Shown: piece by piece, positions 5,492-24,224 of the stretch
How positions within the stretch are numbered: position 1 is the stretch's first letter
How the letters are laid out: every line of letters begins with the position of its first letter
Program-made: the position numbers and the translations under genes
Notes under the pieces: generated by a model
The model's database searches: none
Seen by the model: only the letters and a program-made list of their open reading frames with translations
Told to the model about the DNA's origin: nothing
Virus record (IMG/VR): IMGVR_UViG_3300030118_000637
Coordinates: 1-24,501 of that record
Length of the DNA stretch: 24,501 nt
Strand: one strand, 5' to 3'
DNA from: a virus

Positions 5492-5522
5492 CAAAATAAA
5501 TTAAAAATACTTATATATTAAT
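5492..5522 (+). promoter_or_regulatory. shared late-gene upstream element, copy 1
   Basis: The element reads CAAAAT, 13 variable bases, TTATATATTA, AT, directly against the ATG at 5523. The same two blocks at identical spacing precede the starts at 7668 and 9892. It is not the host TTTG-N19-21-TAnnTTTG pattern. It may be a phage-specific promoter or a translation-initiation element; the sequence alone does not decide. Confidence 0.5.
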
Positions 5523-7106
5523 ATGCGAATAGTAGAGCTTATAATAGACGAAGAGCAAGAAATAGGGATTGAAGCTATTTCAGTTGTAGAAAACCCAGCT
5601 ATCGAAGAGGACTTCGTAGCCCTGAAATCACAAGAGTTCAAACTTGCAGAAGTAGACAAAGAGAAACGTATTTTATTAGGAGCTTTACTTGTCCCAAATA
5701 AGCCTATTTACAGACGTAACGGCAAAGACGAGTATTATATATATTTCTCAAAAGATACGGTCTTAAAAGCCTCTCAAATGTTCTTACAGCAAGGCAAACA
5801 AAACAACTCAACGCTAGAACACCAGCACAAACTAAACGGCCTGTCTTTAGTGGAGTCTTGGATAGTTGAAGATCCTAAAATGGACAAGACAAAATTATAC
5901 GGTATGGAACTGCCCCAAGGAACTTGGGTAGGTGCTGTAAAAGTAAACAATGAACAAGTCTGGAATGAGTTTGTAAAAACTGGCAGAGTCAAAGGGTTTT
6001 CAATAGAGGGCTATTTCGCAGATAAAATGGAGCGACCCAAAGACAAAACCTTAAAAGACGAACTTGCAAAGATTGAGGAAGAGGAAGCAGAATACTTGCT
6101 TAGCCAGTTAGAGGATATAGTGTTATCTAAAAAAATAACTTTAGAAAGTTACACAGACTATCCTGATGCAGTAAAGAACAACGCTCAAAGAGGTATTGAT
6201 CTTAACAAAAAGGTTAACAACAAATGTGCAACAGAAGTAGGCAAAATAAGAGCGCAGCAACTAGCACAAGGCAAAGCAATAAGCGAAGAGACAATCAAGC
6301 GTATGTACTCATTTTTGTCAAGAGCTGAAGAGTATTACGATGAGACAGATAACGAGGCTTGCGGCACTATTTCTTATCTACTATGGGGAGGCTTAGCTGG
6401 TAAAAGATATGCTGCTAAAAAACTAAAAGAGTTTGGGGAACTGAGTTTAGCATCAATGGTTGTAAACGATGACTTCGCTATAATAGACGATAGACTTGCT
6501 TACTCAACCGAAGAGAAAGCCAAAGAGATGTCTAAGGACTTAGGCTGTGAGGGGATACACCAGCACCAGTACGAAGGTAAAACTTGGTATATGCCTTGCG
6601 AGTACCACTCCAAAGAGGATATGTACACACACTACAAAAAATGTCCTAAAGGTTACAAGAAAAAAGATGGCAAATGCGTAAAAATGGCTGAGGTAGGGCC
6701 AAGAGGTGGTATAAGAAAAAGCCCAAAGGCACCAAAGAGCGGCACACCTAACCCAAACCCTAAAGGCAAAGGTACAGCCAAAGGAGATGCTTCTACAAGT
6801 AGAGGGGCTAAAGTATCTAAGGCAGACGAAGCCACCCTAAAAAAAAAGTCTGATGACTTTAACGAGAGATACAAAGATAAGCTAGGCTACGGCGTAAATG
6901 TAGGCACCCTTAAAGCTGTATTTCAAAGAGGATTAGGGGCTTTTAATACAAGCCGAAGTCCTAGAGTTAGTTCTCCTTCGCAGTGGGCTTTTGCTAGGGT
7001 CAATGCGTTTTTGTACTTAGTTAAGAACGGCAGACCTCAAAACAGTAAATATACTGGCGATAACGATTTACTTCCCAAAGGACACCCAAAGAGCGACAAG
7101 AAATGA
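5523..7106 (+). CDS. XkdF-like head maturation protease with extra C-terminal domains
   Basis: This 527-residue protein has at least four parts. Residues 1-170 are an XkdF-like prohead protease domain (IEAISVVENPAIEEDF at the N-terminus, LEHQHK with H100/H102 and GFSIEG with S160 as the likely catalytic His and Ser). Residues 209-303 carry YPDAVKNNAQR, CATEVGKIRAQQLAQG and CGTISYLLWGG, a domain fused to several phage head proteins. Residues 342-388 are a Cys/His-rich patch (GCEGIHQHQYEGKTWYMPC, KCPKGYKKKDGKC). Residues 389-527 include a Gly/Pro-rich linker and a domain like DUF5824 (GVNVGTLKAVFQRGLGAFNT, QWAFARVNAFLYLV). It lies upstream of scaffold and capsid genes, as expected for a head protease. 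The functions of the three C-terminal parts are unknown. Confidence 0.8.
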   Translation: MRIVELIIDEEQEIGIEAISVVENPAIEEDFVALKSQEFKLAEVDKEKRILLGALLVPNKPIYRRNGKDEYYIYFSKDTVLKASQMFLQQGKQNNSTLEHQHKLNGLSLVESWIVEDPKMDKTKLYGMELPQGTWVGAVKVNNEQVWNEFVKTGRVKGFSIEGYFADKMERPKDKTLKDELAKIEEEEAEYLLSQLEDIVLSKKITLESYTDYPDAVKNNAQRGIDLNKKVNNKCATEVGKIRAQQLAQGKAISEETIKRMYSFLSRAEEYYDETDNEACGTISYLLWGGLAGKRYAAKKLKEFGELSLASMVVNDDFAIIDDRLAYSTEEKAKEMSKDLGCEGIHQHQYEGKTWYMPCEYHSKEDMYTHYKKCPKGYKKKDGKCVKMAEVGPRGGIRKSPKAPKSGTPNPNPKGKGTAKGDASTSRGAKVSKADEATLKKKSDDFNERYKDKLGYGVNVGTLKAVFQRGLGAFNTSRSPRVSSPSQWAFARVNAFLYLVKNGRPQNSKYTGDNDLLPKGHPKSDKK

Positions 7107-7252
7107 TAAGACGTATTAAGAGATTTATAACACCAAGTAGAACAAGCCCCAAAGGTGGGCGCAGAGCTTGTCTATGTGAGGACAATACTTATAAGATTGA
7201 GTGTTGTGATGGATCACTAAGGGCGCAAGGGATTGGAAAAATATCACAATAA
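7103..7252 (+). CDS. small conserved Cys-motif protein
   Basis: This 49-residue basic protein begins at an ATGA overlap with the protease stop. Its C-terminal half has RRACLCEDNTYKIECCDGSL followed by AQGIG, with four cysteines as CxC and CC. I recognise the pattern from small proteins in Bacteroidota phage structural clusters. The cysteines could bind a metal or form disulphides in the virion; that is inference. Its stop lies just before the more likely start of the next gene at 7263. Confidence 0.7.
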   Translation: MIRRIKRFITPSRTSPKGGRRACLCEDNTYKIECCDGSLRAQGIGKISQ

Positions 7253-7262
7253 ATATAATAAA

Positions 7263-7628
7263 ATGGAAAACTATAAAAGAGTAATAAAACGCTTAAACAA
7301 AGAACAACTATCAACACAAAAGGTACAATTAGGTATTGTTGATGATTTAAAAAATTATATTGAATCTTTAGAAGGCTCAATAAAAACTTTAAATGGAGAT
7401 TTTCAAATTTTTAGATCTTTAAGAAATAGAGTTCAATCTGAAGCTGAAAATGGCGAACAAAGAATAAAACAAATAAATCAAGAATTGCAAAGATTAAGAC
7501 AAGCAGCAAAAGAACTTGGTATTGACCCAAATAGTTTTGCAGAAGTAAAACAAGCAGAAAGATTATTAAGTAACTTTAAAAGCCTTACGCAAGGTAGAGC
7601 AAAATTAGGCGGTTTACTTTCTTTATAA
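7263..7628 (+). CDS. coiled-coil protein of unknown function (head region)
   Basis: This 121-residue, mostly alpha-helical protein is rich in Lys, Gln, Glu and Leu, with heptad-like spacing over about residues 5-85 (IVDDLKNYIESLEGSIKTL, RIKQINQELQRLRQAAKEL). The ATG at 7263 is preferred over an upstream TTG in the same frame at 7233, because it has the A-rich context (TATAATAAAATG) typical here and avoids overlapping the previous gene. It sits between the protease and the scaffold-like gene, so a head-assembly or chaperone role is possible. No known family is recognised. Confidence 0.7.
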   Translation: MENYKRVIKRLNKEQLSTQKVQLGIVDDLKNYIESLEGSIKTLNGDFQIFRSLRNRVQSEAENGEQRIKQINQELQRLRQAAKELGIDPNSFAEVKQAERLLSNFKSLTQGRAKLGGLLSL

Positions 7629-7636
7629 TAAAAATG

Positions 7637-7667
7637 CAAAATTAATTTTTAAACATTATATATTAAT
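7637..7667 (+). promoter_or_regulatory. shared late-gene upstream element, copy 2
   Basis: CAAAAT, 13 bases, TTATATATTA, AT lie directly before the ATG of the scaffold-like gene at 7668. The conserved blocks and spacing are identical to those of copy 1. The intervening 13 bases differ, which argues against simple recent duplication of the whole segment. Confidence 0.5.
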
Positions 7668-8264
7668 ATGAAATCAAATGATATGATAACTAAAATCAAA
7701 GAGGTTTTAAACTTGACAGAGGAAGTCAAGCTAGAACAACTAAAACTTGAAAACGGCACTATCTTAGAGGCAGACTCTTTTGAGGCTGGCAAAGAAGTCT
7801 TTATAATTACTGAGGACGAGAAAGTAGCCCTACCAGTTGGGGAGTATGAACTTGAAGACGGACGTAGCTTACTTGTAGAAGAGGTAGGTTTAATTGCTGA
7901 AATCAAAGCGGAGGAAGAAGAAAAAGAAGAAGTAGAGGCAGAAAAAAAAGAAAAAGAAGAAATGCAATACGCAACAAAAGAGGAACTAGCAGAGGTTAAA
8001 AAAATGATAGAAGAAATCAAAGCAATGCTAGAGCCTAAAGAAGAAATGAGTGCTGACGAAATGGGCAACTTATTGACAGAGGAACTGTCAAAACAAGAAA
8101 TCCCAGACGAGGTACAAGTAGAACTAAACAAACCAGCAGCGGAGCCAATTAAGGCAAACCCAGAGGCTGAGTCAAAAAATACTGGAGGTTATAGATACGC
8201 AAACAACAGACGTAAAACTACAGCCGACAGAGTAATGGAACGAATATTAAAAATTAACAACTAA
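7668..8264 (+). CDS. acidic scaffold-like capsid assembly protein
   Basis: This 198-residue, very acidic protein lies immediately upstream of the major capsid gene. The first 80 residues form a small beta domain (LEQLKLENGTILEADSFEAG, ELEDGRSLLVEEVG). A charged coiled-coil of about 60 residues follows (EEEEKEEVEAEKKEKEE, LAEVKKMIEEIKAML). The C-terminus is basic (GGYRYANNRRKTTADRVMERI). An acidic helical body with a basic tail next to the capsid gene is the usual layout of a scaffolding protein, whose basic tail binds capsid subunits. No protease fusion is visible; the head protease is encoded separately at 5523. A second in-frame ATG at 7683 is an alternative start. Confidence 0.7.
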   Translation: MKSNDMITKIKEVLNLTEEVKLEQLKLENGTILEADSFEAGKEVFIITEDEKVALPVGEYELEDGRSLLVEEVGLIAEIKAEEEEKEEVEAEKKEKEEMQYATKEELAEVKKMIEEIKAMLEPKEEMSADEMGNLLTEELSKQEIPDEVQVELNKPAAEPIKANPEAESKNTGGYRYANNRRKTTADRVMERILKINN

Positions 8265-8276
8265 AAATAAAAAAAA

Positions 8277-9188
8277 ATGAGTGTATCAATTACAAGTACT
8301 TATGCTGGAGAATTTGCTGGGAAATATATTGCCGCAAGTTTATTAACAGCTAAGACAATAGATGACGGAGCTATCACAGTACTTCCAAACATCAAACTAA
8401 AGTCCACTATGAAAGTTGGGGCTTTTTCAAATCTAATTAAAAATGCGAGTTGCGACTTTGATACTACAACGTCCAGCTTGGCGCTGACAGAAAAAACGCT
8501 AACTCCTAAAGAACTGCAAGTAAACATAGACATTTGTAAAAAAGACTTACATAGTGATTGGGAGGCAGCCCAAATGGGTTTTAGCGCATTTGATGAGCTC
8601 CCTCCTTTATTCTCTGATTTTGTTATCTCAAGAGTAGCTGCTGAGGTAGCTTCTGCTACTGAAACAGCGATTTGGAGTGGAACAGATACAGATGGTAGCT
8701 TCGCTGGGCTAAAAGCTCAGATTAACGCAGACGGCAACAGAACTTTAGTGACAGCAACAGATATTACATCCAGCAATGTGGTAGCACAGCTCGGTGCTGT
8801 GATTGACTCCATACCTGCGGGGGTGTATGGCTCAGAGGATTTGTATATTTACTGCGCACAAAACGTATTTAAAGCTTACATAAGAGCTTTAGGTGGGTTT
8901 GCTGCTACTAACAGCGGTGTAGATGCTAAAAGTCACACTTTCTACAACGGTGGGGAGTTAAGCTTTGACGGTGTTAAATTGTACCCAACAAGCGGAATGG
9001 GTGCAAATGAAATGGTAGCTGCTAGAAGCTCAAACTTATTCTTTGGAACTGGTCTACTTAACGACTACAACGAGGTAAGAGTTTTAGATATGGCAGAGCT
9101 TGACGGAAGTCAAAACGTTAGAGTTATAATGCGTTATACAGCTGGGACTCAAATTGGAGTTGGATCTGATATCGTACTTTACACTTAA
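8277..9188 (+). CDS. major capsid protein
   Basis: This 303-residue protein follows the scaffold-like gene after 12 bases and is itself followed by a strong terminator at 9212. It has the composition of a phage capsid protein: rich in Ala, Gly, Ser and Thr, mixed alpha/beta, with no signal peptide. Recognisable stretches include MKVGAFSNLIKNASCDFD, LTPKELQVNIDICKKDL, AETAIWSGT-like ATETAIWSGTDTDG, and YNGGELSFDGVKLYPTSGM near the end of the middle domain. These resemble HK97-type capsid proteins of flavobacterial phages. Its start context is A-rich (AAATAAAAAAAAATG), consistent with strong initiation. Homology was not computed; position and composition carry the call. Confidence 0.85.
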   Translation: MSVSITSTYAGEFAGKYIAASLLTAKTIDDGAITVLPNIKLKSTMKVGAFSNLIKNASCDFDTTTSSLALTEKTLTPKELQVNIDICKKDLHSDWEAAQMGFSAFDELPPLFSDFVISRVAAEVASATETAIWSGTDTDGSFAGLKAQINADGNRTLVTATDITSSNVVAQLGAVIDSIPAGVYGSEDLYIYCAQNVFKAYIRALGGFAATNSGVDAKSHTFYNGGELSFDGVKLYPTSGMGANEMVAARSSNLFFGTGLLNDYNEVRVLDMAELDGSQNVRVIMRYTAGTQIGVGSDIVLYT

Positions 9189-9211
9189 TAGAAACAATTA
9201 ACTAACATAAG

Positions 9212-9241
9212 AAGGGTGGGCAAAACTGCCTACCCTTTTTT
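9212..9241 (+). terminator. Rho-independent terminator after the capsid gene
   Basis: An 11-bp stem (AAGGGTGGGCA pairing with TGCCTACCCTT, one G-U) closes a 4-base loop, AAAC, and is followed by a run of T. It lies 24 bases after the capsid stop. It would end or reduce transcription between the capsid and tail tube genes. Confidence 0.85.
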
Positions 9242-9256
9242 ATTAAATCTAAAAAT

Positions 9257-9808
9257 ATGGCTTGTGCAATTACAAAAGGGAGAGGGGTAGGATGTAAGAC
9301 CGCTTTCGCTGGAATCAACAATATTTACATACTAGACTATAGCGATGCTATTGCAGCTTTAGCAGACTCAAGCGGTACAATTACACTGCCTACAGATAAT
9401 AGCGCAGAGTTCTTTAAGTTTGATGTACAAGGGGCTTTAAGCAGCCTTGAGACAGCTGTAACAAGTTCAAGAGATAATGGGACTACTTTTTACGAAAGTA
9501 CCTTAAATATCACTTTTCAAAACTTAGACGTAGCAACTCAAGAAGAGCTAAAACTCTTAAACAGAGGAAGAGCGCACTACGTTGTAGAATTATTTGAAGA
9601 CGGTGCCGGTAGCACTAAAAGACTTTTACTAGGTCTTAAAAATGGGTGCGAGGTTACTGCTGGTACAATCGTTACTGGTGCTGCTCCTGGAGATTTACAA
9701 GGCTTCACTTTAACAGTTGTAGCTACAGAGGTAAATCCACCGTTTTTCTGTACTGCTCCTGATATTAAAGAAGCAGACGGTGTGCCTCTACAAATTACAC
9801 CATCATAG
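9257..9808 (+). CDS. probable major tail tube protein
   Basis: This 183-residue, beta-rich protein (MACAITKGRGVGCKTAFAGI at the N-terminus; LNITFQNLDVATQEELKLLN; GFTLTVVATEVNPPFFC near the end) has no enzymatic motif. It stands alone between two strong terminators (9212 and 9830) directly after the capsid gene, the position and isolation expected for a second very abundant virion protein. The pattern of a central beta-sandwich with a helix and a late TLTVVATEVNPP strand is compatible with tail tube folds. The tail tube assignment is inferred from size, beta content and context; a minor capsid or decoration protein is the main alternative. Confidence 0.6.
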   Translation: MACAITKGRGVGCKTAFAGINNIYILDYSDAIAALADSSGTITLPTDNSAEFFKFDVQGALSSLETAVTSSRDNGTTFYESTLNITFQNLDVATQEELKLLNRGRAHYVVELFEDGAGSTKRLLLGLKNGCEVTAGTIVTGAAPGDLQGFTLTVVATEVNPPFFCTAPDIKEADGVPLQITPS

Positions 9809-9829
9809 TAGTTTATTTATATTTAAAAC

Positions 9830-9857
9830 AAGCCTTCCTTTTTGGAGGGCTTTTTTT
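9830..9857 (+). terminator. Rho-independent terminator after the tail tube-like gene
   Basis: A 9-bp stem (AAGCCTTCC with GGAGGGCTT, one G-U) and a TTTTT loop are followed by seven further T residues. It lies 21 bases after the stop at 9808 and just before the third shared upstream element. Confidence 0.85.
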
Positions 9858-9860
9858 ATA

Positions 9861-9891
9861 CAAAATATTTTAATTTTATTTATATATTAGT
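9861..9891 (+). promoter_or_regulatory. shared late-gene upstream element, copy 3
   Basis: CAAAAT, 13 bases, TTATATATTA, GT lie directly before the ATG at 9892, the same layout as at 5492 and 7637. Here the element follows a strong terminator at once, so the downstream portal cluster needs its own promoter or read-through. That favours a transcriptional role for this copy. Confidence 0.55.
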
Positions 9892-10242
9892 ATGAAGATT
9901 ATAACAACAAGCGGCACTAAGGCCTTAAAGATCATACCAAGGACTTTTTTTGCTGGAACTATTAATCTAAAACTTACAAACGAAAGTACGGGCGGTGTAG
10001 TAAATACAACAGCTACAGCCTCAACAGACAGAAATTATATGAGCTTTACTGGTACTTTTGGCACTCTTGTAGAAGGGGAGTTTTACAACTTAGAGGTTTT
10101 ATTGTCTGGGGCTACAATATACAAAGACAAAGTATTCTGCACAGACCAAACAATAGACCAAACAAACAATAATTACTATTCTGTTAATAGTGGAGAATAT
10201 AACACAGAGAATAGCTTTGATAACGATTATATTATTTTATGA
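9892..10242 (+). CDS. small beta-rich virion-cluster protein
   Basis: This 116-residue protein (MKIITTSGTKALKIIPRTFF; GTINLKLTNESTGGVVNTT; YNLEVLLSGATIYKDKVFC) looks like a small Ig-like or beta-sandwich domain with a low-complexity Asn/Tyr-rich C-terminus (NNNYYSVNSGEYNTEN). Similar short proteins occur next to portal genes in Bacteroidota phages. Its stop overlaps the portal start (ATGA). No function is assignable; a minor structural role is inferred only from position. Confidence 0.65.
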   Translation: MKIITTSGTKALKIIPRTFFAGTINLKLTNESTGGVVNTTATASTDRNYMSFTGTFGTLVEGEFYNLEVLLSGATIYKDKVFCTDQTIDQTNNNYYSVNSGEYNTENSFDNDYIIL

Positions 10243-12059
10243 ACGATTTACGGATAGTTAATTTAAGCAGCTACACAAGCCCAGAGATTATTGAGAAATC
10301 AAACAAGAAGTTTGTAGCTTACGGAAGCGATAATAACTACTTTCAATATCTTATAGACAGATACAACGGCAGCCCTACCAATAACGCTATTATAAACGGT
10401 ATTAGTCAAATGATTTACGGCAAGGGTTTAGACGCCTTAGACTCTAGCAAAAAGCCAGAGCAATACGCTCAAATGGTTTCTTTATTTAACAAAGATTGTG
10501 TAAGGAAGCTATGCTATGACTTGAAACTTATGGGTCAATGTTCTATGCAGGTCATTTACTCAAAGGACAGAAAAACAATAGCACAAGTAGAACACATCCC
10601 AGTTGAGAATCTAAGAGCTGAAAAATGCAACGAAAAAGGCGAGATAGAGGCTTACTACTATTCTGATAACTGGCAAAAGGTAACAACAAGAACAGAGCTT
10701 CAAAGGATACCAGCCTTTGGATATTCAAACGAAAATATAGAGATAGTTTACGTCAAACCTTACAGAGCTGGTTACAAATACTATTCAAGTCCTGACTACC
10801 AAGGAGGGCTACAATATGCAGAATTAGAAGAGGAAATAAGCAACTATCACTTAAACAACATACTTAACGGACTCGCTCCGTCTATGCTTATCAACTTCAA
10901 CAACGGCACTCCAAACGCAGAAGAGCGACAAATGCTTGAGAATCGTATTTATCAAAAGTTTAGCGGATCTAGTAACGCTGGTAAGTTTATTCTAGCTTTC
11001 AACGACAATGCAGAAAGCGCAGCACAAATAGAGCCTATACAATTAAGTGATGCTCACAATCAATACCAATTCTTATCTGACGAGAGCGGTAAAAAAATAA
11101 TGGTAGCGCACAGAGTTGTAAGCCCTATGCTTTTAGGAATCAAAGACAGCACAGGTCTAGGCAATAATGCAGACGAACTGCAAACTGCAAGTATATTAAT
11201 GGACAATACCGTTATAAGACCTTTTCAGCACCTTTTGATAGATGCTTTTGATTCTATACTAGCTTTTAACAATATAGCCTTAAAACTATACTTTAAGACC
11301 TTACAGCCGCTAGAATTTACAGACTTAGAAAACGTAGAGGACGAAGAGACAAAAGAGGAAGAGACTGGAGTAAAACTATCAAAGGATTTACCAGCAGAGT
11401 TAGGCAGTAAAATAGCAGACGCCTTAATAGACTTAGGGCAAGACGAAACAGAGCTTCTAAGCGACTTTGACGTTATGGATGAGCGAGAGGTAGACTACGA
11501 CCAAGAGGAGGGCTTAGACGAGGTAATAACAGACCTAAACAAGCCAAAAGAAAAAAGTACACTAGCTAAAATATGGGAGTTTGTAAGTACAGGCAGCGCA
11601 AAGCCTTACAGTAAGAGCGAACAAGATGGTAAAAGCAAACAAGAGAGGGAAGAGGGTAATACTTTTCTAGTACGGTATATGTACAGCCCACAAAAATACA
11701 ATGCAAATTCAAGACCTTTTTGTAAAAAAATGGTTGATGCTAACAAGGTTTACCGCAAAGAGGATATACAAGCTATGACTACTAAGGCTGTGAATCCTGG
11801 TTTTGGTAAGGGTGGGTCTAATACTTACTCAGTATGGCTATACAAAGGAGGTGCTAGATGTCAGCATAAATGGCTCCGAAAGACATACGTACGCAAGGAG
11901 GGTGCTAAGAGTTTAGGGGATGCAATCACAACAACAGAAGCAAGGTCAAGAGGTTTTAAACCAAAGGCAAACGCTCAAAAGGTACCAGTGGCCCCCAAAG
12001 ATATGAAGTACAAAGGTTACACAGCGGAATATTGGAATAAAATAGGATTTAAGAACTAA
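10239..12059 (+). CDS. portal protein with a C-terminal Cys/His extension
   Basis: This 606-residue protein is the putative dodecameric head vertex through which DNA is packaged. The first ~370 residues match a portal layout: FVAYGSDNNYFQYLIDRYNGSPTN near the N-terminus, NAIINGISQMIYGKGLD, then HIPVENLRAE, EIEIVYVKP-like strands, and the helical stem region (QFLSDESGKKIMVAHRVVSP, STGLGNNADELQTASILM). An acidic linker covers about 370-470. The last ~135 residues form a separate domain with NSRPFCKKMVDANKVYRKED, NPGFGKGGSNTYSVWLYKGG and CQHKWLRKTY, known to me as a fusion domain in Bacteroidota phage head proteins. The extension's role is unknown. It starts at an ATGA overlap and its last base is the first base of the next ATG. 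Confidence 0.85.
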   Translation: MNDLRIVNLSSYTSPEIIEKSNKKFVAYGSDNNYFQYLIDRYNGSPTNNAIINGISQMIYGKGLDALDSSKKPEQYAQMVSLFNKDCVRKLCYDLKLMGQCSMQVIYSKDRKTIAQVEHIPVENLRAEKCNEKGEIEAYYYSDNWQKVTTRTELQRIPAFGYSNENIEIVYVKPYRAGYKYYSSPDYQGGLQYAELEEEISNYHLNNILNGLAPSMLINFNNGTPNAEERQMLENRIYQKFSGSSNAGKFILAFNDNAESAAQIEPIQLSDAHNQYQFLSDESGKKIMVAHRVVSPMLLGIKDSTGLGNNADELQTASILMDNTVIRPFQHLLIDAFDSILAFNNIALKLYFKTLQPLEFTDLENVEDEETKEEETGVKLSKDLPAELGSKIADALIDLGQDETELLSDFDVMDEREVDYDQEEGLDEVITDLNKPKEKSTLAKIWEFVSTGSAKPYSKSEQDGKSKQEREEGNTFLVRYMYSPQKYNANSRPFCKKMVDANKVYRKEDIQAMTTKAVNPGFGKGGSNTYSVWLYKGGARCQHKWLRKTYVRKEGAKSLGDAITTTEARSRGFKPKANAQKVPVAPKDMKYKGYTAEYWNKIGFKN

Positions 12060-17465: not shown

Positions 17466-17524
17466 TTTTTTATGTTTATATTTGTTTAAAATAATTTTTT
17501 TAAGTTTTTGTTTAGATTGTTTTT

Positions 17525-17559
17525 AAAAGTCTGCTTTTGATTAAGTGGACTTTTTTTTT
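17525..17559 (+). terminator. Rho-independent terminator after ninG
   Basis: AAAAGTCTGC pairs with GTGGACTTTT (10 bp including two G-U pairs) around the loop TTTTGATTAA, followed by a long T run. It ends the ninG transcript and insulates the promoter at 17578. Confidence 0.75.
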
Positions 17560-17566
17560 GTTTATT

Positions 17567-17587
17567 TTTGTTTATATTTTGTTTATA
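17567..17587 (+). repeat. 21-bp direct repeat at the early promoter (copy A)
   Basis: Two TTTGTTTATA units 11 bases apart make a 21-bp sequence that occurs again, identically, at 21666-21686. TTTGTTTA also occurs at 17481, 17507 and 17557, giving five copies within 105 bases. The second unit supplies the -33 TTTG of the promoter, so the repeat may be an operator. Confidence 0.6.
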
Positions 17588-17608
17588 TTATTTTTTTTTA
17601 TAACTTTG
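17578..17608 (+). promoter_or_regulatory. Bacteroidota housekeeping promoter for the early cluster
   Basis: TTTG (17578-17581), 19 bases, TAACTTTG (17601-17608) exactly match the Bacteroidota consensus TTTG-N19-21-TAnnTTTG. A start at about 17613-17616 would leave a short leader of about 10 bases before the ATG at 17625. It probably drives the replication/recombination genes using host RNA polymerase. Confidence 0.85.
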
Positions 17609-18724: not shown

Positions 18725-19567
18725 ATGAATGACGAGAAACTAACCCACCAAATGTATATGGAGCTTTTAAAAGAAGAGCTTACCATAAACACTAAAGAGG
18801 TTTTAGAATACCCACCTACAGCCCTAAGCTACGGAGAAAAAACAATCAAAACCCTCAAAGGACAAATGACAGTTCCTATTAGTATTGGTACGTATGGCAA
18901 TTTCTCGTTTATACAAGCCCCCCCAAAGAAACGCAAAAGTTTTTTAGTATCACTTTTAGCCTCAGTCTATTTAAGCGGTCAGAACAATTTTGGAGGTAAA
19001 CTAAAAGGCCATAGAGACAGCAGATGTCTTCTACATTTTGATACAGAACAAGGAAGGTGGCACTGTCAAAGACTGTTTAAAAGGGTCTTAGATATGGCAA
19101 ACATAAAGGATGTAGGATGCTACAAAACCTTCGCCCTTAGAACTATCAACTACAAAACAAGGATAGAATTTATAGAACATACCTTAAAAGAAAACAAAGG
19201 CAAAAATGGTTTAGTTATTGTAGACGGAGTGGCAGATTTGGTCTCGGACGTCAATAGTTTGGAAGAATCTAATCTCTGTGTACAAAAAATAATGGAGTGG
19301 AGTACCTTATATGACTGTCACATACTTACGGTAATACACTCAAACTTTGCCACAGATAAAGCTACTGGACACCTTGGATCTTTCCTTGAGAAAAAATGTG
19401 AGACTTGCATACAAATAGAACAAAACTCTGTTCACTCAAATAACAGTACGGTCAAGTGTAAAAGGTCAAGAGGCTATGCTTTTGATACTTTTAGCTTTAG
19501 TGTTAATGAGTTTGGACTGCCTTATATAGTTGGACATATATACGACCCCTTAAAAGATTTTGAATGA
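18725..19567 (+). CDS. RecA/RepA-like (AAA_25-type) ATPase
   Basis: This 280-residue protein has a RecA-core ATPase layout of the RepA-helicase or phage Sak4-like kind. The P-loop region at residues 64-73 reads QAPPKKRKSF, which keeps the Lys-Ser pair but lacks the usual first Gly. LHFDTEQG (103-110) follows, then the Walker B strand LVIVD (D167), then TVIHSN (203-208) and GHLGSFLEKKCE (215-226). It likely works on DNA as a replicative or recombination motor. It lies after the SSB and before the PP-loop gene, which it overlaps by ATGA. Homologous proteins in other phages often show the same altered P-loop. Confidence 0.75.
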   Translation: MNDEKLTHQMYMELLKEELTINTKEVLEYPPTALSYGEKTIKTLKGQMTVPISIGTYGNFSFIQAPPKKRKSFLVSLLASVYLSGQNNFGGKLKGHRDSRCLLHFDTEQGRWHCQRLFKRVLDMANIKDVGCYKTFALRTINYKTRIEFIEHTLKENKGKNGLVIVDGVADLVSDVNSLEESNLCVQKIMEWSTLYDCHILTVIHSNFATDKATGHLGSFLEKKCETCIQIEQNSVHSNNSTVKCKRSRGYAFDTFSFSVNEFGLPYIVGHIYDPLKDFE

Positions 19568-20409
19568 AAACAGTAAACAGTCTTAGCGGTGGCAAAACAT
19601 CTAGCTACATAGCTGCTAATTACCCAGCAGACTTTGACGTTTTTTCTTTAGTTAGAACAAGCGATAAAAACTGTATGTATCCAGACAAAAAGCTTAGACA
19701 AATAGTTTCAGATAAAATAGGCACAGAGTTTATAGGCACTCTAGAGGATGACGTTATAATACATACAATGTTAGACCTTGAGCAGTATATAGGCAGAGAG
19801 ATAACTTGGGTTACTGGTAAGACCTTTGATGAAACAATAATAACAACTAAAAAAGGCACAAGATATTTGCCCAATAAGATGGCGAGATATTGTACAACAG
19901 AACTTAAAACAATACCTATACTTACTTGGATATATAAAGAACTTAAAGAGGCTGTAGTTATGCGATTTGGATATAGAGCTAATGAAACAAAAAGAGCTAA
20001 TAGGATGCTCCAAAAAACAGACAGCGAGGGTTTTACTAATGTAAAAGCAACTTTTAAAAAACACAAAGACGGCAGAAACGCTTGGGATGTTTACAGATAT
20101 TGTAAACCAGACTTCCCACTTATTAAGGACAATATTTATAAAGATACAATAGAAAGCTACTGGACGGATAAAAATGTAAGGTTTGCTTATATGAATAACT
20201 GTGTAGGCTGCTGGTGGAGAAGTCCTCTGCTTCTAAAGAAAATGTCAAACAAACACCCCAAAAAAATGAAGTGGTTTGCAGACCAAGAAACAAATAAAAG
20301 CAAATGGAGGAGCGATGTAATGTACAAACATATAATAAGCTGGAACACTCAAGCCGAGTTATTTGACGATGACTTTAACGAATGCGACAGCGGCTATTGC
20401 GGCTTATAA
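19564..20409 (+). CDS. PP-loop / PAPS-reductase-like protein with Cys clusters
   Basis: This 281-residue protein belongs to the adenine nucleotide alpha-hydrolase (PP-loop) superfamily. NSLSGGKTSSYIA at residues 5-17 is the ATP-binding loop, with Thr in the usual D position. Further features are ARYCTTELKTIP (C110), RFGYRANETKRANR (about 134-147), CVGCWWRS (C213, C216) and DFNECDSGYCGL (C274, C279) at the end. Four or more cysteines could hold an Fe-S cluster or act in sulphur transfer. Relatives include PAPS reductase, DndC (DNA phosphorothioation) and tRNA thiolases. The substrate here is unknown. It is translationally coupled to the ATPase. Confidence 0.75.
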   Translation: MKTVNSLSGGKTSSYIAANYPADFDVFSLVRTSDKNCMYPDKKLRQIVSDKIGTEFIGTLEDDVIIHTMLDLEQYIGREITWVTGKTFDETIITTKKGTRYLPNKMARYCTTELKTIPILTWIYKELKEAVVMRFGYRANETKRANRMLQKTDSEGFTNVKATFKKHKDGRNAWDVYRYCKPDFPLIKDNIYKDTIESYWTDKNVRFAYMNNCVGCWWRSPLLLKKMSNKHPKKMKWFADQETNKSKWRSDVMYKHIISWNTQAELFDDDFNECDSGYCGL

Positions 20410-20418
20410 AATAAAAAT

Positions 20419-20913
20419 ATGAAATCACTTGTTGAACTTGCCTACGATAAACACAAAGACTGGATTAAGATTGTTAGATCTTTTGGCTGCAATCCTAGCC
20501 TAGCTGAGGACATAGTACAAAGTATGTACTTGCAGCTTATTTGCGACATTCAAAAAGGTTTAGACCTTTGGTACGGAAACGAAGTCAACACTTACTACGT
20601 CTATAAAGTTTTGAGAGGGATATTCTTAAACACCCACAAGAAACAAGCAAGAGAGCTAAAAACCTACATAGAAGAGATAGAAGGAGAAATAAAGCAAATA
20701 GACGATCTTTCTATTGACGAGGTACAATACGCTAAGAATAAAGACAAAATAGACGCTATTTTAAAAGAAATGTACTGGTATGACTCCAAAGTTTTTACTT
20801 TAGTTGCTAGTGGTAAGTCTGTAGCCTCACTTAGTCGAGAGACTAAAATTTCTTATTATAGTTTATATAATACATATAGGACAGCTTTAAAACACATAAA
20901 AGATAATTTATGA
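20419..20913 (+). CDS. sigma-70-like transcription factor
   Basis: This 164-residue protein has an ECF-like two-domain layout. Residues ~10-70 look like sigma region 2 (HKDWIKIVRSFGCNPSLAED, IVQSMYLQL, VYKVLRGIFLN). An acidic linker (~80-105) follows, and ~115-164 resemble region 4 with a helix-turn-helix (YDSKVFTLVASGKSVASLSR, YYSLYNTYRTALKHI). Such factors redirect host RNA polymerase and are seen in Bacteroidota phages. It could read the shared elements before 5523, 7668 and 9892. The gene stands 9 bases after the PP-loop gene and overlaps the next start by ATGA. The sigma call is from pattern; DNA target and partner are inferred. Confidence 0.7.
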   Translation: MKSLVELAYDKHKDWIKIVRSFGCNPSLAEDIVQSMYLQLICDIQKGLDLWYGNEVNTYYVYKVLRGIFLNTHKKQARELKTYIEEIEGEIKQIDDLSIDEVQYAKNKDKIDAILKEMYWYDSKVFTLVASGKSVASLSRETKISYYSLYNTYRTALKHIKDNL

Positions 20914-23526: not shown

Positions 23527-24224
23527 TGGAAAATATTTTTTTTGTTAAATCAATTAAATCAAAAATGACTTATGAATGGTTGTTAAAAAAACATTACGCA
23601 AAAAGAATACCATCAATAAAATATGCTTTTGGTTTATTCACTAAAGACAGTAAAATTATGATTGGTTGTTGTACTTATGGAATCCCTCCTTCAACGAACG
23701 CGCTTTTGTTATGTGGGGATAGAAATAAAGAAATAGCTATCGAACTGAACAGATTGATAAAAAATGACGGTCTGCCAAAAAACACACAGAGTTGGTTTGT
23801 TGCACAAACTTTTAAGTTATTGCCAAAACCAATGATTATATTAAGTTATAGTGACCTTAATAATGGGCATAACGGATATACTTACCAAGCACTTAATTTT
23901 ATTTACACAGGAGAGGGTGGATCGTCTTTCGAATATGTTTTTAGAAAAAAACAATATCACAGTAGACACATAAATAGAGAGTGGATAGAAAAAAGAGGTG
24001 GTGTTTGGAGTGATAACCAAACTGTAAACCAAAATTTTAAAAATTTGGGGGGTCAAGTAATACCACAAAAACCAAAACACAGATACGTCCTTTTTTTGGG
24101 AAATAAATCACAAAAAAAAAGATTAAGTAAAGAGTTAAAATGGAATACTTTACCTTACCCCAAAAAACAAAATATTACCTACGACACATCGTATAAAACA
24201 TCAACTCAATATGAAATCTTTTAA
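23526..24224 (+). CDS. Mom-like DNA-modification candidate
   Basis: This 232-residue protein resembles the Mom family (adenine methylcarbamoylation in phage Mu), which protects phage DNA from restriction and has a GNAT-like fold. Features: KHYAKRIPSIKYAFGLF (23-38), IGCCTYGIPPS (46-56), IELNRLI (73-79), KLLPKPMIILSYSD (97-110), and NGHNGYTYQALNFIYTG (113-129). Start: the ATG at 23526, joined by TGATG to the RecE-like gene, is preferred over an in-frame ATG at 23505. The gene looks more AT-rich and richer in A/T-ending codons than its neighbours, which may mean separate acquisition. No Com-like regulator is visible beside it. The family match is from memory. Confidence 0.7.
   Translation: MENIFFVKSIKSKMTYEWLLKKHYAKRIPSIKYAFGLFTKDSKIMIGCCTYGIPPSTNALLLCGDRNKEIAIELNRLIKNDGLPKNTQSWFVAQTFKLLPKPMIILSYSDLNNGHNGYTYQALNFIYTGEGGSSFEYVFRKKQYHSRHINREWIEKRGGVWSDNQTVNQNFKNLGGQVIPQKPKHRYVLFLGNKSQKKRLSKELKWNTLPYPKKQNITYDTSYKTSTQYEIF

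Follow-up and report, generated by a model that had tools for sequence, protein, structure and literature searches.

The closest described systems are found in two phages, 7-11 of Salmonella and the coliphage phiEco32, whose small sigma factors (SaPh711_gp47 and phi32_gp36, respectively) bring the host core RNA polymerase to a few late promoters (PMC8948821). The 7-11 sites are bipartite (GTAAtg-16-aCTA), and among the kin of these phages with diverged sigma factors promoter positions were kept while the sequence changed (PMC8948821). The principle of a phage sigma factor with its own late promoters is already known. Phage-specific late promoters that overlap or lie near the start position occur in phiKZ (TATG) and AR9 (AACA-N6-TA/G) (PMC5312081), where the readers are phage multisubunit polymerases; none was seen in the DNA analysed here. 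A literature search on sigma factors or late promoters of Bacteroidota phages yielded no description.

Late element and neighbouring genes

The window is the whole stretch of viral DNA analysed, 24,501 nucleotides in length. The element CAAAAT-N13-TTATATATTA-RT-ATG was located in three exact copies (5492-5520, 7637-7665 and 9861-9889). The original prediction of three identically spaced copies held, with 0 matches in 100 dinucleotide shuffles of the window (0 expected against 3 found). The TTATATATTA block is followed by AT, AT and GT, respectively, and then by ATG at 5523, 7668 and 9892. The three 13-base middles are unlike one another, as had been claimed. Recent duplication of the element was rejected, since the middles differ while the blocks persist at orthologous sites. 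Predicted features of the late region are as follows.

5492-5497, + strand: CAAAAT, the -35-like block in late promoter 1 (for the protease gene); exact motif, conserved at orthologous sites
5511-5520, + strand: TTATATATTA, the -10-like block in late promoter 1; exact motif, spacer of exactly 13 conserved
5523-7106, + strand: prohead protease gene (XkdF-like, Peptidase_S78_2); Pfam PF14550, 2.4e-14
7637-7642, + strand: CAAAAT, the -35-like block in late promoter 2 (for the scaffold gene and the capsid-like gene downstream); motif, relatives
7656-7665, + strand: TTATATATTA, the -10-like block in late promoter 2; motif, relatives
7668-8264, + strand: putative scaffold gene; PHROG 24921 (C-terminal part), function suggested by gene order
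8277-9188, + strand: putative major capsid protein; PHROG 11320, function putative
9214-9237, + strand: terminator-like hairpin with a T run, 3' of the capsid-like gene
9830-9856, + strand: terminator-like hairpin (stem 9830-9852) and T run just 5' of late promoter 3
9861-9866, + strand: CAAAAT, the -35-like block in late promoter 3 (for the 116-aa head gene and the portal); motif, relatives
9880-9889, + strand: TTATATATTA, the -10-like block in late promoter 3; motif, relatives
9892-10242, + strand: 116-aa head gene, opens the portal unit; no family match
10239-12059, + strand: portal protein gene; PHROG 33693, 2.4e-113

The genes behind the three copies (protease, putative scaffold and a head gene ahead of the portal) agree with their earlier designation as late genes. 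The scaffold gene is the first of a unit shared with the putative major capsid gene, which has no element of its own and whose product is 32% identical to gp02 of Nonlabens phage P12024S. The terminator reported ahead of the third copy was recovered as the hairpin and T run at 9830-9856, and the same arrangement of hairpin and promoter 3 is present in many relatives. Near-complete relative genomes carry the element at 4-6 late genes; the window has only 3 sites because it ends before the terminase region, which carries the others.

Strong conservation of the element extends through a large clade of viral contigs, from related phages whose sites are not independent of one another; at least 120 IMG/VR stretches have it with a spacer of 13, against one locus with a spacer of 10-12 and two with 14-16. 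Exactly two bases and then ATG follow 134 of the 164 IMG/VR matches. The exact element was found 71 times in the sense orientation and 0 times in antisense in 21 genomes, where the A-block stands at spacer 13 for 71 of 85 TTATATATTA blocks (spacer 14: 1; spacer 12: 0). The bipartite sequence with its fixed spacer is conserved at late genes that open units. The two checks that had been suggested, whether related phages keep the blocks and whether the element clusters before structural genes, both came out positive, the element being confined to late genes.

The distance to the start codon is variable. At one orthologous gene the block lies 2 nt from the ATG in 10 genomes and 14 nt from it in 9, with an unchanged N-terminus, and the tree of that gene contains at least 3 switches between the two states (most simply 5). 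At another gene the distance is 24-39 nt. Over all sites it is 2, 4, 14, 16 or 24-39 nt, the position being independent of the coding start.

Phage sigma factor

A gene for a candidate reader was located downstream of boxes of host type:

17477-17608, + strand: three host-type -7 boxes, candidate early promoters (TATATTTG at 17477, TATTTTTG at 17563 and TAACTTTG at 17601)
20419-20913, + strand: gene for an ECF-like sigma factor of 164 aa, the proposed reader; Pfam, fold, co-occurrence

The early block with the sigma gene lies downstream of the boxes. Pfam Sigma70_r2 was found in 21 of 23 relatives (best 1.5e-4), the window protein itself lying under the cut-off (16.4 against 24 bits), and r4_2 in only 5 of the 23 (E up to 0.1, best 0.012). 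The best PDB matches of an AlphaFold model were nearly all ECF sigma factors. Residues 101-164 of the model match region 4 of sigF (Z 10.1, 1.9 Å over 63 residues) and the fold of region 2 was matched with Z 9.3 (2.5 Å over 70 residues); the pTM of only 0.49 supports the two domains and not their mutual arrangement. Region 2 is followed directly by region 4, without region 3, as in ECF-type factors. The window sigma gave no match by tblastn against named phages, profile comparison tied it to gp33 of P12024S, and a PDB sequence search with the sigma profile returned weak matches only, headed by a sigma factor at E 0.08.

The sigma gene is present in 11 of 11 element-bearing contigs longer than 23.7 kb. 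Conversely, 18 of 19 sigma-bearing contigs carry the element, and a reversed-pattern control gave 1 match over all. An element-like site inside the sigma gene, at 20844, is probably a coding coincidence.

Reading of the element

The element is best explained, with a probability of roughly 0.8, as a late promoter with CAAAAT as the -35-like and TTATATATTA as the -10-like block, read by host RNA polymerase carrying the phage ECF-like sigma factor (20419-20913). The sigma gene lies in the early block, with the host-type boxes in front, and its product, once made, would take host polymerase away to some five late promoters, for which the two blocks would form a bipartite site. One such promoter would stand at the head of each of the units for terminase, tail, protease, scaffold-capsid and head-portal. 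The most likely start of transcription, judging from the conserved bases, is an A three bases past the -10-like block. Leadered sites keep a T in 22 of 23 cases and then a purine in 23 of 23, which places the probable start at the A of the ATG; most copies would then yield leaderless mRNA. The three window copies all have their ATG 2 nt off, where the starting A would coincide with the first base of the start codon; transcription starts are predicted at the A of ATG 5523 and at that of ATG 9892. The T/purine pair argues for leaderless late messages. Leaderless mRNAs make up 5.5% of the mapped mRNAs in Flavobacterium psychrophilum (PMC9723704).

With TATATT (-12 to -7) as a classical -10 hexamer, transcription would start 2-4 nt past the A of the ATG, at codon 2, and either read-through RNA would serve for translation of the ATG or initiation would use a codon further on. 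If the hexamer is TATATA or TTATAT, a start at the A is accommodated, and the spacer of 13-14 nt is then unusually short. A start inside or just after the ATG is nevertheless quite unlikely, as T and then a purine are conserved at the presumed -1/+1 even at sites without an ATG there, the N-termini of the proteins are conserved from this ATG, and GTG replaces it in one relative (L123). That the promoter is served by another factor of the phage, either an activator or a polymerase not recognised as such, with the sigma-like protein acting at other genes, is also unlikely. The link between sigma and element is one of co-occurrence and parallel divergence, and many window ORFs have no family. Against this, a two-domain sigma factor reads just such a bipartite site with fixed spacer, the window proteins searched with Pfam showed no RNA polymerase, and elements differ with the sigma factors even where capsid genes are close. 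Two relatives with no detected sigma (G044 and G046) likewise have no such element at the protease gene.

The original prediction had also offered a translation-initiation element, and in a phylum without Shine-Dalgarno sequences an AU-rich block beside the AUG could recruit ribosomes. The CAAAAT block at -31 is outside the usual ribosome footprint. The -10-like block does adjoin the ATG in most copies, and Flavobacterium favours adenine at -3 (PMC6847099). A translation element should keep a constant distance to the ATG, whereas among orthologues this distance is 2 or 14, or 24-39 nt, while the spacing between blocks stays 13. The element is also found only at unit-opening late genes, one copy following a terminator. 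A role in translation is on these grounds highly improbable and was rejected; the fixed spacer of 13, separability from the ATG, confinement to late genes and the co-occurring phage sigma factor support the promoter function that had been predicted, and as far as can be read from the DNA the element is a promoter, not a translation element. Use of host sigmaA holoenzyme or a host ECF sigma factor has a close to negligible probability. The core polymerase must come from the host, and Bacteroidota hosts have several ECF sigma factors (PMC9723704), but the predicted mismatch to the host consensus was confirmed: the TAHHTTTG box expected at -12 to -5 is absent from the sense strand at all three sites, and a host sigmaA promoter was rejected. 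Matches from a scan for classical sigma-70 promoters formed an AT-rich background and did not line up with the element sites. The full pattern with ATG had a single match in a 257-Gb genome collection, before an 8-codon frame, so the element is not a host promoter class there; a host or prophage origin was rejected, this match being a chance site.

Other lineages and known systems

In four further phage lineages, with sigma factors 19-35% identical, the corresponding position ahead of the same genes is occupied by other sequences; their elements were compared partly by eye, from 2-5 sites per genome. P12024S, with its own sigma gp33, has CGTTAATATA-NN-ATG. G037 has AGTTWTAATA-NT-ATG and a distant sigma factor, though its capsid gene is 67% identical to that of P12024S. 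No element of this kind was seen at the protease gene of G044 and G046 (records of 19-29 kb). It is on balance probable that at least five related lineages each pair an ECF-like sigma factor with a matching late promoter fused to the ATG, giving leaderless virion-gene mRNAs, in a phylum in which few messages are of that kind, with a layout that was kept while sigma and promoter changed together. If so, both transcription and the mode of translation would be switched specifically for late genes, and leaderless late messages would make a strong case for asking why phages use so rare a start mode.

The phage is marine and probably infects Bacteroidota, and its group is very common; gene control in the group appears undescribed. 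The proposed early-to-late switch is complete and testable, in that promoters, likely sigma factor and predicted starts are all named. The diverged sigma-promoter pairs form a natural series that offers a view on the evolution of sigma specificity and could provide orthogonal promoters for Bacteroidota genetics.

The window sigma resembles ECF (group 4) factors in protein size, fold and the possession of regions 2 and 4 only, with very low sequence similarity to known ECFs. Sites of the P12024S lineage (AAAAC-N17-CGTT) resemble ECF promoters. The flavobacterial ECF motif SM6 has a CGT box (PMC9723704); the window site lacks one, and its -10-like block consists of A and T only. Host sigmaA promoters of Bacteroidota (TTTG/TAHHTTTG) are also of two blocks and such boxes precede the early block here, whereas the late element matches neither block.

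The Bacteroidota system, the leaderless layout and the co-divergence of sigma and promoter appear to be unreported. Leaderless late messages are not described for 7-11 and phiEco32 in the passages of PMC8948821 consulted. Compared with those phages, the host phylum, the phages themselves (records of about 25-37 kb) and the consensus are different here, and the spacer is 13. Starts in 7-11 and phiEco32 lie 6-9 bp from the promoter element, whereas most sites described here are fused to the start codon.

The element in the window and its viral relatives

Three exact copies of the two-block element CAAAAT-N13-TTATATATTA were found in the window, as originally noted, with 0 expected in shuffled sequence. 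AT, AT and GT separate them from the ATGs of open frames at 5523, 7668 and 9892. The terminator proposed ahead of the third copy was recovered as a terminator-like hairpin immediately upstream.

5492-5520, first copy; prohead protease gene (PF14550) at 5523
7637-7665, second copy; putative scaffold gene at 7668
9861-9889, third copy; 116-aa head gene at 9892, portal gene directly downstream
20419-20913, putative phage sigma factor ORF, 164 aa, weak Sigma70 region 2 match (E 0.008)

A small ORF without family matches lies between protease and scaffold (7260-7628) and is missing from that place in the close relative G018.

An exact scan located the element in at least 120 IMG/VR stretches. Among the matches listed from these, 134 of 164 were followed directly by two bases and ATG; the remainder look like chance sites. 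With ATG required, spacers of 10-12 bases gave 1 locus and spacers of 14-16 bases gave 2. Across bacterial and archaeal genomes totalling 257 Gb, the element with ATG was matched once, upstream of an eight-codon frame. The spacing preference and near-absence from cellular genomes therefore indicate a real, viral and spacing-specific signal, and conservation in related phages, which the original prediction had left to be checked, was borne out.

The window and 20 relatives of 21-32 kb were scanned with the relaxed pattern [CT]AAAA[AT]-N13-TTATATATTA, giving 71 sense and 0 antisense exact matches, or 97 and 4 with one mismatch allowed. The A-block stood at spacer 13 in 71 of 85 exact sense TTATATATTA blocks (spacer 14, 1; spacer 12, 0). 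Near-complete genomes carried 4-6 sites, located upstream of an 88-90 aa gene adjoining the terminase large subunit (Terminase_3), a 214-218 aa gene, and the protease, scaffold and 116-aa head genes, with an extra site ahead of other genes in some. The window is a fragment without the terminase side.

Promoter function and predicted transcription start

The distance from the TTATATATTA block to the ATG was 2 nt at 69 sites, 4 nt at 1, 14 nt at 10, 16 nt at 2 and 24-39 nt at 10. Ahead of the 214-218 aa gene it was 2 nt in 10 genomes and 14 nt in 9 with the protein N-terminus unchanged, and it differed between near-identical sister proteins (contigs G005 and G014). The tree of this gene needed five distance changes, at least three of them forced by well-supported branches. 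Inter-block spacing is kept while the start codon shifts, which is promoter behaviour and not that of a translation signal. Of the two readings originally offered, the translation element was discarded and the promoter retained, as a late promoter (probability about 0.93). In the 24-39 nt leader of the 88-90 aa gene, such as that at 11075-11104 in G018, a short palindrome, TTGATTAATCAA or one like it, often stands between the predicted start site and the ATG.

Twenty-three sites have their ATG elsewhere than at +2; in these, T was the second base past the block in 22 cases and a purine the third in all 23, and the following bases varied. Judged from sequence, this T-purine pair matches the pyrimidine-purine pattern usual at transcription starts. 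Where the ATG does stand at +2, the conserved purine is its A; hence leaderless messages are predicted, all three window copies included, and transcription probably starts at that A. GTG replaces ATG in one relative (L123), so this codon does serve to start translation. If TATATT were the -10 hexamer, transcription would by classical geometry begin 2-4 bases further on; a start at the A agrees with TATATA or TTATAT as the hexamer. Leaderless mRNAs make up 5.5% in Flavobacterium psychrophilum (PMC9723704), and 87% of predicted leaders in F. johnsoniae exceed 10 nt (PMC6847099).

A putative phage sigma factor as likely reader

The Sigma70 region 2 match was present in 21 of 23 relatives of the window sigma (best 1.5e-4) and a region 4 match in five. 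Best PDB matches of its AlphaFold model (pLDDT 78.8, pTM 0.49) were ECF sigmas; modelled residues 1-74 aligned with SigR region 2 (Z 9.3, 2.5 Å over 70) and 101-164 with SigF region 4 (Z 10.1, 1.9 Å over 63). IMG/VR holds at least 590 relatives. Of 17 contigs with the element, 11 exceed 23.7 kb and every one of these carried the sigma gene; the five without it were fragments of 12-23 kb. The element, with up to three mismatches, occurred in 18 of 19 sigma-bearing contigs; a reversed-pattern control gave 1 match in all. The sigma gene lies in the early block, preceded by three host-type TAHHTTTG boxes (17477, 17563, 17601), and no such box was found on the sense strand upstream of the window late genes. 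It is very likely that the phage sigma reads the element.

A two-mismatch copy within the region 4 coding sequence (20844-20872), also seen in a few relatives, is probably a coding coincidence, though it may be an internal promoter. A phosphoadenosine phosphosulfate reductase-like gene (19564-20409, PHROG 424) is inserted right upstream of the sigma gene; in G018 no such gene lies between the AAA protein and sigma. The window also encodes a Mom-family DNA modification protein (23529-24221; PF25680, 3.3e-34), which the G018 ORF map does not show.

Divergent lineages and known systems

Cross-lineage elements were compared from few sites per genome, in part by inspection. Nonlabens phage P12024S has head genes related to those of the window (capsid 32%, portal 37%) and a sigma, gp33, above the Pfam cut-off with a profile match to the window sigma family (E 1e-6). 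In place of the window element, P12024S has AAAACA-N16-CGTTAATATA-NN-ATG at its protease and head genes and at three others. In contig G037, whose capsid protein is 67% identical to that of P12024S and whose sigma is distant, CGTTAATATA-NN-ATG was not found; the same three gene types carry GTAACAAAA...AGTTWTAATA-NT-ATG. Two more lineages (L315-L320; L325) have their own element versions at the same position, and sigma genes in near-complete records. Across the five lineages the sigmas are pairwise 19-35% identical, the -10-like block occupies positions -12 to -3 relative to the ATG, and a CAAA-type block starts at about -29 to -31.

In L322 (about 9490-9538; also L321, L323 and L324) a terminator hairpin ahead of the head gene seems to hold ataacaata, -35-like, in its loop, with tagtttaata-gt-ATG past the T run; this seems to be a promoter embedded in a terminator. 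The 28.7-kb record G044 yielded no sigma. Loci L327, L328 and L329 share a different 20-base string, GTTGTTTTTAGAATAAATAA, ahead of both protease and head genes, and no sigma was detected in record G046, so other late control may operate there.

Among the papers searched, none described how phages of this group use sigma factors or late promoters. In phages 7-11 and phiEco32, encoded sigmas are described as sending host core polymerase to late promoters (PMC8948821; PMC4331800); those of 7-11 are reported as bipartite, and the two phages' late promoters as keeping position but differing in sequence (PMC8948821). By analogy, the window system, with its putative phage sigma and late promoters, would work like that of 7-11 and phiEco32.
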